Below are positions 11,716-48,803 of a DNA stretch of 64,000 nucleotides, one piece after another. A program made the translations under genes and the position numbers. The DNA lies in NCBI GenBank assembly GCA_031282735.1, contig JAITDE010000069.1, positions 1 through 64,000 on the forward strand, read 5' to 3'. Position 1 is the first letter of the stretch. The number at the start of each line of letters is the position of its first letter. The notes below the pieces were generated by a model. The model ran no database searches. It was not told the DNA's origin and worked only from the letters and a program-made list of their open reading frames with translations. This DNA is from Oscillospiraceae bacterium (GTDB lineage Bacteria; Bacillota; Clostridia; Oscillospirales; Acutalibacteraceae).

Positions 11716-11834
<119 letters not shown>

Positions 11835-47512: not shown

Positions 47513-47679
47513 TGGGAATTTTACGTCTTTATCATTCTTTACCTAAAAATTTGTCTAAATTTTGATTTATTATACAATAATATGATAATCTCTTTTTTCA
47601 GCAGTCATCATTTAACCAAAAAATTTGCAAAAATCATGTGCCAATCAAAAAACATTTGCATATAGTGCAATAGGCGAAT

Positions 47680-47940
47680 GTCGGCCGCGCGTTTGCGGCG
47701 CACGCCGCGAGAGCAATTTCCGCGGGCGGAACTGGGCGGGGTGGCGCGTTGCGCCCGGGGATAGCCCTGCCCTTGGCTGCCGCAGCCGCAAAAAACGGCA
47801 TTGCCGCCATGCGCCGCCCGTTTTTGGGGCGGAAAGCGCGCCGCAAGTGTGCCGCCTTCCGCCCGATTCTATAAAAAAGCTCTCGGCATGCCAACATAGC
47901 GGCGGCACTGCCCTGACCCCGCACCGCAGTGCCGCCTGTC
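47680..47940. other. GC-rich intergenic segment with multiple inverted repeats, function unknown
   Basis: GGCGGCACTG...CAGTGCCGCC at 47901-47936; GGCGGAA...TTCCGCC near 47828-47863; sharply different composition from AT-rich flank 47520-47640. Confidence 0.55.
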
Positions 47941-47993
47941 AATCGGTATACGTAAATCAATTGTGATACGATCAGTTTGGAGGTACGTCATCC

Positions 47994-48593
47994 ATGAGCA
48001 ACAACAATCTTTTTTCTTGCCGCAAACGCCAGTGTTCTGTAAAAGTCGCATTCCCTGTTATCACTTCGGATGGCTGTTCAGTGGCAGGCGCCGTATTCAA
48101 AATCGCCTGTTCCTGCGGTAAATTCAGCAACGCAATTTCGGATTGCAACGGCTGTGTCACGTTCTGTGGGTTGGCTCCGGGGCATTACACAATCACGCAG
48201 GTCGCCGCGCCCTATGGTTATGCGGCCGACGACAAATCGCACACCGTTATGGTGAATTGCAACGGCTGTGTCAAAATTGACGACTTGCCCGTCCGCTGTT
48301 TTCAGGCTGTTAACGACAAAGCGGAGGCACCGCCCGCGCCGCAAAGCGATCAGCCGGATATCAATCCCATTGCCGCCGATGCGGTCACAATCACCGGCAC
48401 GGGCGAACCCGGGAGCGCGATTACCGTGATTTTCCCAAACGGATGCAAGGTATGCACCATTGTGCGCCGCGATGCCGCGTGGTCTGCGGATGTTCCCGAC
48501 GGTATCACGCTCAAGACGGGGGACGAAGTGACGGTTATCCAAGAGACACCGTGCAAACTGCCCAGCAAACCCAAAGACGAGTTCGTTGTTTAA
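47994..48593 (+). CDS. Cys-rich SpaA/prealbumin-like plus Ig-like (Big) domain protein, no evident signal peptide
   Basis: SVAGAVFKIACSCGKFSNAISDCNGCVTFCGLAPGHYTITQVAAPYGYAADDKSHTVMVNCNGCVKI matches the SpaA-domain pattern; GTGEPGSAITVIFPNGCKVCTIVRRDAAWSADVPDG resembles a Big domain; TTTGGAGGT Shine-Dalgarno. Confidence 0.82.
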   Translation: MSNNNLFSCRKRQCSVKVAFPVITSDGCSVAGAVFKIACSCGKFSNAISDCNGCVTFCGLAPGHYTITQVAAPYGYAADDKSHTVMVNCNGCVKIDDLPVRCFQAVNDKAEAPPAPQSDQPDINPIAADAVTITGTGEPGSAITVIFPNGCKVCTIVRRDAAWSADVPDGITLKTGDEVTVIQETPCKLPSKPKDEFVV

Positions 48594-48600
48594 CTCTAAG

Positions 48601-48803
48601 TCAAGCCAAAAAGCAAAAAACTTTTCCCCGCTTCGCGCGCCTGCGGCGAGCACCCTCTTCTTTTCTTGAAAGAAAAGAAGCAAAAGAACTTTTTCCCGCT
48701 TCGCGCACCTGTTTTCAGACTGAGCAAATATACATCAGCCTAAAAACGACAGCGCGAAGCGGCTAAAGTCTTTTTGCTTACTTTTTCTTTAGAAAAAGTA
48801 AGG
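48601..48803. repeat. Composite dispersed repeat with both palindrome types and GC-rich spacers
   Basis: Palindromes CTTCTTTTCTT-GA-AAGAAAAGAAG (48657-48680) and CTTACTTTTTCT-TT-AGAAAAAGTAAG (48777-48802), with CGCTTCGCGC modules. Confidence 0.92.

Follow-up and report, generated by a model that had tools for sequence, protein, structure and literature searches.

The gene studied here occupies positions 47994–48593 on the forward strand of the window, by which we mean the whole 64,000-nucleotide stretch of Oscillospiraceae DNA that was analysed. An earlier note, made from the sequence, had described its product as a 199-residue protein with 14 cysteines, and this open reading frame was recovered with exactly those ends. 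The gene is present in one copy in its own genome and is preceded by a Shine-Dalgarno sequence, a predicted structured leader RNA, and a putative promoter (Table 1). Cysteine accounts for 7.0% of the protein versus 1.7% in the large open reading frames of the window (P about 1e-5 in a naive binomial test). Segments of the CCCGCTTCGCGC(G/A)CCTG type recur just past the stop codon, at 48600–48800, together with an AT-rich inverted repeat. Elsewhere in the window a 5S rRNA stands alone at 11718–11833, with neither 16S nor 23S rRNA reported by Rfam in the window.

Table 1. Features of the locus, in window coordinates.
Feature	Position	Strand	Basis and remarks
Putative -35 element GCC, 16 nt before the -10	47640..47642	+	ACC in 6 orthologues; weaker than consensus here
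Putative -10 element CATATAGT, sigmaK/sigmaE type	47659..47666	+	CATATGAT/CATATCAT in relatives; 10/11 orthologue loci
Predicted 5' leader RNA, about 325 nt	47669..47993	+	Conserved promoter-adjacent 5' end; D1–D3 elements
D1 conserved segment	47709..47727	+	Relatives share AGCGAARAUUCGCGGGC; this species diverges
D2: outer stem, U, inner hairpin, CGGGGA(U/G)AG, outer stem	47734..47772	+	Covariation
D3: invariant AACAUA, 11–12 bp stem, loop CUGACCCCGC	47883..47936	+	Covariation
Shine-Dalgarno GGAGG	47979..47983	+	Sequence; kept in most orthologues
CDS, 199 aa, 14 Cys, signal-less SpaA + Ig protein	47994..48593	+	
SpaA/CnaB (prealbumin-like) domain, aa 27–91	48072..48266	+	Pfam PF17802, E=3e-10; Foldseek CnaB2/SpyCatcher
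Big_6/Bap-C-like Ig domain, aa 119–183	48348..48542	+	Pfam, E=1e-5; family profile vs Bap-C, E=1e-26

A cysteine-rich, signal-less SpaA/Ig family

The proposed SpaA fold is borne out by Pfam, with PF17802 scoring 40.6 bits against a gathering threshold of 23.1. The Big-like domain is matched by Big_6, but at 25.9 bits it falls just under the cut-off of 27.6; the match of the family profile to the Bap C-region is strong. AlphaFold2, run on a four-sequence alignment, predicted two beta-sandwiches with modest confidence (mean pLDDT 60), and the Foldseek matches were CnaB/SpyCatcher, BcpA, and Bap. The repeated CNGCV motif is present in two copies (aa 51–55 and 89–93), and cysteines do sit in loops that are usually rich in D/N, as most family members have a CxC-type sequence where Bap-C has its TDKDGN-type loop.

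The reported lack of an export signal also stands. The best 15-residue hydropathy of the window protein is 1.49, versus about 1.9–3.1 in secreted SpaA proteins, and the protein has neither an LPxTG motif nor a membrane segment. The earlier note had allowed that a start codon and signal peptide might have been missed upstream, or that homologues might be conventional sortase substrates. A missed start is ruled out because an in-frame stop lies 10 codons 5' of the ATG, so that the frame opens only 9 codons before it, and 11 of 11 orthologues have no signal, anchor, or LPxTG. With signal peptide and LPxTG both missing, a conventional sortase-assembled pilin or adhesin was ruled out.

The gene is present in 11 of the 14 sampled genomes of the genus, its own included (10 of 13 others); all genomes in the comparison are metagenome-assembled (MAGs). 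Three members come from Oscillospiraceae MAGs, and the bin names suggest a termite-gut origin for the named relatives. The members form a real protein family: all 11 are 198–245 residues long, carry 13–21 cysteines, lack a signal, and match SpaA at E≤0.01. The orthologues share 24–47% identity with the window protein over the alignment, L044 being distant. Ordinary SpaA proteins were expected to hold few cysteines, and in this genus the long SpaA proteins indeed contain 0.1–0.6%. The remaining matches in samples of 200 genomes from the family and 394 from the order were mostly such long SpaA proteins, a search of genome contigs for relatives with the window protein as query gave no match, and a literature search of incomplete coverage returned no described protein of this type. 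Two signal-less but cysteine-poor SpaA proteins (L049 and L054, in G200 and G201) have in common a helical N-terminus, PRDALAA(I/V)MASIALQEAAVAH(I/V)LNAEGEKIQAVV, which we take to be possibly another spore-surface leader segment.

Conserved cysteine positions are limited to C102 (kept in 10 of 11), a cysteine near residue 3 that 10 of 11 orthologues have and the window protein itself lacks, and the columns equivalent to residues 54, 141, and 185. No orthologue has C51 or C89, the cysteines that open the two CNGC motifs. Metal binding is disfavoured because the CxxC motifs are not conserved, and a Zn-knuckle function was accordingly dropped. Cysteines are numerous but partly drift in position, a pattern easier to reconcile with cross-linking than with a metal site. 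The isopeptide lysine position is Val or Ala in 11 of 11 orthologues, and the catalytic glutamate position is Gln in the window protein and Glu in about 2 of 11; the roles of these residues are presumably those of the known CnaB2 triad. The window protein thus has neither the first-strand Lys nor the catalytic Glu of isopeptide-forming SpaA/CnaB domains.

Promoter-like sites and sporulation genes

At 317–489 nt upstream of the start codon, 10 of the 11 loci have a CATANNNT box with a conserved AA(C/T)AGGC after it; the match is absent at L044. About 15–17 nt before the box, a -35 element read by eye is ACC at six loci, GCC at three, and neither at one (L039). The sigmaK promoters of C. difficile have AC as the -35 element, and one has CATATAAT as its -10 (PMC3789822). 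The sigmaK-like sites of the 10 loci resemble this consensus, which may indicate control by sigmaK, with the -35 of the window gene being GCC and not AC. A promoter comparison with spoIVA yielded no usable sites.

The own genome encodes SpoIVA, found above cut-off in 10 of the 14 genus genomes, and two sigma factors of the sigmaE/K family (283 and 248 bits) that score below the NCBIfam sigK cut-off. G207 (93% complete) carries a divergent copy of the gene, and no SpoIVA was found in it; G210 has SpoIVA and no copy of the gene. The sigK-like matches are split in G048, G200, G205, and G206, with the N- and C-terminal parts apart, which suggests skin-like intervening elements in several members of the genus; the copy in the own genome looks intact.

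Signal-less, cysteine-rich SpaA proteins also occur in other genera (L031 and L032 in G128, L003/L143 in G053), and AC-N15-18-CATANNNT lies 76–122 nt upstream in three of three cases. The same pattern is found within 250 nt of none of 12 secreted SpaA proteins and in 16 of 426 background 300-nt tiles of the window, a contrast that is suggestive rather than a formal test because the cases were found after looking. L143 (contig C69, 1068–3644, reverse strand) encodes 858 residues without a signal, with an extremely cysteine-rich N-terminus followed by SpaA repeats, behind a putative sporulation-type CATACACT promoter; its product is a possible spore appendage or exosporium protein. L032 (4219–4737, reverse strand) and L031 (1643–2017, forward strand) encode short signal-less SpaA proteins with sigmaK-like sites upstream, and that of L032 has 33 cysteines in about 170 residues.

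The covarying leader RNA

The leaders of the orthologues are GC-rich and fill the interval between promoter and start codon. The D3 stem shows compensatory change at 9 of 12 pairs and is 94% paired. D2 likewise has compensatory change at 9 of 12 pairs, with 91.7% of cells paired, a count made on hand-trimmed pieces of equal length because MAFFT misaligned the stems, both in the full leader and in D2; the pieces were chosen to contain the stems and one base of L037 was dropped, which biases the result toward the structure. On these pieces there were 26 double-change cells versus 9.1 in shuffles, and the covariation score was reached by 0 of 500 shuffles. A pseudoknot of the D3 loop, GGGGUC:GACCCC, is 74.5% paired; its GGGGUC partner is present in most relatives and absent in the window species, and we do not claim the pseudoknot as universal. 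Folding z-scores are negative in 10 of 10 leaders, that of the window leader being moderate (-1.6). There is good support for the leader as an authentic structured RNA.

A D3 model gave a single significant match per genome in the 11 that carry the gene, besides a second, weak match in G207. Among the three genus genomes that lack the gene it found none in two and a weak match in G210. This last match (L153) was set aside, as it does not lie upstream of an orthologue; near it, on contig C2, is a Pro/Cys-rich, signal-less open reading frame (MPTPNSSFWWSDPWCAKGKPCGCHTKDCGC...) of spore-coat-like character. The single copy per genome rules out a genome-wide repeat. Outside the genus, searches of 200–398 family genomes with the D3 model and the promoter pattern gave only chance-level matches, and the lone pattern match (L140) proved on inspection to be without D2 and D3. 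Rfam had no match to the leader at gathering threshold and, across 13 loci, nothing plausible at E≤1, only sub-threshold miRNA, lncRNA, and plastid artefacts.

The distance from D3 to the start codon varies from 48 to 190 nt, and no conserved U-tract terminator was found between leader and start codon across the orthologue loci. The neighbouring genes, with names assigned by eye, differ by species (an ABC transporter, glyS/rlmB, tig-clpPX, ilvD, rsmG, or a butyrate-kinase-like gene). Because the leader stays beside the coding sequence amid these differing neighbours, gene and leader behave as one unit. The leader probably controls the timing, stability, or translation of this single mRNA, and it is more novel than the cysteine-rich SpaA/Ig protein itself.

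A proposed spore-surface role and its alternatives

Taken together, the sequence comparisons lead us to propose, with a probability of about 0.6, that the window protein is a mother-cell, disulfide-linked structural component of the spore coat or exosporium. Late in sporulation, a sigmaK-type promoter would drive transcription of the gene in the mother cell, and the mRNA would be monocistronic, its long leader structured. After synthesis in the cytosol the protein would be assembled onto the forespore surface, a route that would call for neither an export signal nor a sortase. Its two rigid beta-sandwich domains would bear their cysteines chiefly in the loops and at the N-terminal end, and disulfides forming between molecules as they assemble would stand in for the isopeptide bond (SpaA) and the calcium sites (Ig) by which the exported relatives are stabilised. 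With 6.1–9.9% Cys and no hydrophobic N-terminus, the family has the high cysteine content and lack of a signal peptide that characterise cysteine-rich spore proteins. The earlier note had left the choice between a disulfide- and a metal-linked protein of the spore coat or cell interior. The putative sporulation-type promoter, the sporulation genes, the signal-less family, and the precedent of cysteine-rich spore proteins agree with the disulfide-linked version; the metal-linked version is not supported, as the CNGC pairs that suggested it are not conserved among orthologues. Against our proposal stand the GCC -35 of the window gene, the promoter gaps at L039 and L044, the sub-threshold sigK matches, the discordance of gene and SpoIVA in G207 and G210, the restriction of the comparison to MAGs, and the small number of conserved cysteine positions. 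If our proposal is correct, a pilus/adhesin module was recruited to a spore surface built by the mother cell, apparently in at least three genera, through loss of export and isopeptide chemistry and gain of cysteines.

An intracellular protein that binds Zn or Fe through CNGC knuckles, in a structural or regulatory role, would account for the two CNGC motifs and the further closely spaced cysteine pairs of the window protein; it is improbable given that C51 and C89 have no counterparts and that cysteine positions drift while their number stays high. We regard as equally improbable an adhesin of the vegetative cell surface that is descended from the secreted SpaA adhesins of the genus and leaves the cell by a non-classical route. 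The SpaA domain is common to those long secreted proteins, but signal, anchor, and LPxTG are missing in all 11 members, cysteine content is at least ten-fold higher, and the putative promoter is of sporulation type. Less improbable, though still unlikely, is a fibre or appendage subunit, like an ENA hair, in place of a sheet-forming coat protein. The N-terminal cysteine of 10 of 11 orthologues could then be a connector, and the beta-sandwich domains and the 858-residue relative, with its cysteine-rich N-terminus and SpaA repeats, would suit such a design; against it, the Pfam ENA domains are unmatched and the window protein has no cysteine near residue 3.

For the RNA, the alternative is an independent non-coding RNA that merely adjoins the gene, whose own promoter would then lie downstream of D3. 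The variable D3-to-start distance and the genus-wide conservation of the structure are compatible with this, but RNA and gene travel together through different genomic neighbourhoods, a conserved terminator between them was not found, and they co-occur in the genus except for one weak match without an orthologue, so we consider it doubtful. Tentatively, and at slightly less than even odds, we put forward the fuller reading that the leader represents a new, genus-restricted class of RNA, a late-sporulation cis-regulator (or bifunctional RNA) of one mother-cell spore-surface gene, whose adhesin-derived protein has exchanged isopeptide and calcium for disulfide stabilisation. A covarying leader on a gene of spore-surface type would, if so, add an uncommon tier to the control of sporulation.

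Several known systems share parts of this arrangement. The SpaA/CnaB domains of pilins and adhesins (CnaB2/SpyCatcher, BcpA) belong to the same fold family, whereas the window protein has no export signal or LPxTG, has Val/Ala for the isopeptide Lys across its family, and has many cysteines. The Ig repeats of the staphylococcal Bap C-region (7dm0, 6m3a) are related through the Ig domain; in the window protein, by contrast, a CxC-type sequence replaces the acidic calcium loop, the Ig domain is single, and the protein is not exported. ENA subunits would be similar in the way they work, being signal-less beta proteins of the spore surface, and S-ENA is disulfide-linked, but the window protein matches neither DUF3992 nor DUF4183 in Pfam at E≤1. 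CsxA, ExsY, and CotY are unrelated cysteine-rich, self-assembling proteins that are cross-linked intracellularly on spores (PMC7333573). Like CsxA, CdeC, and CotY/ExsY (PMC7333573), the window protein is cysteine-rich and signal-less, with mother-cell assembly and disulfide cross-linking proposed; it differs from them in having no detected sequence relationship and in using SpaA and Ig domains as its scaffold.
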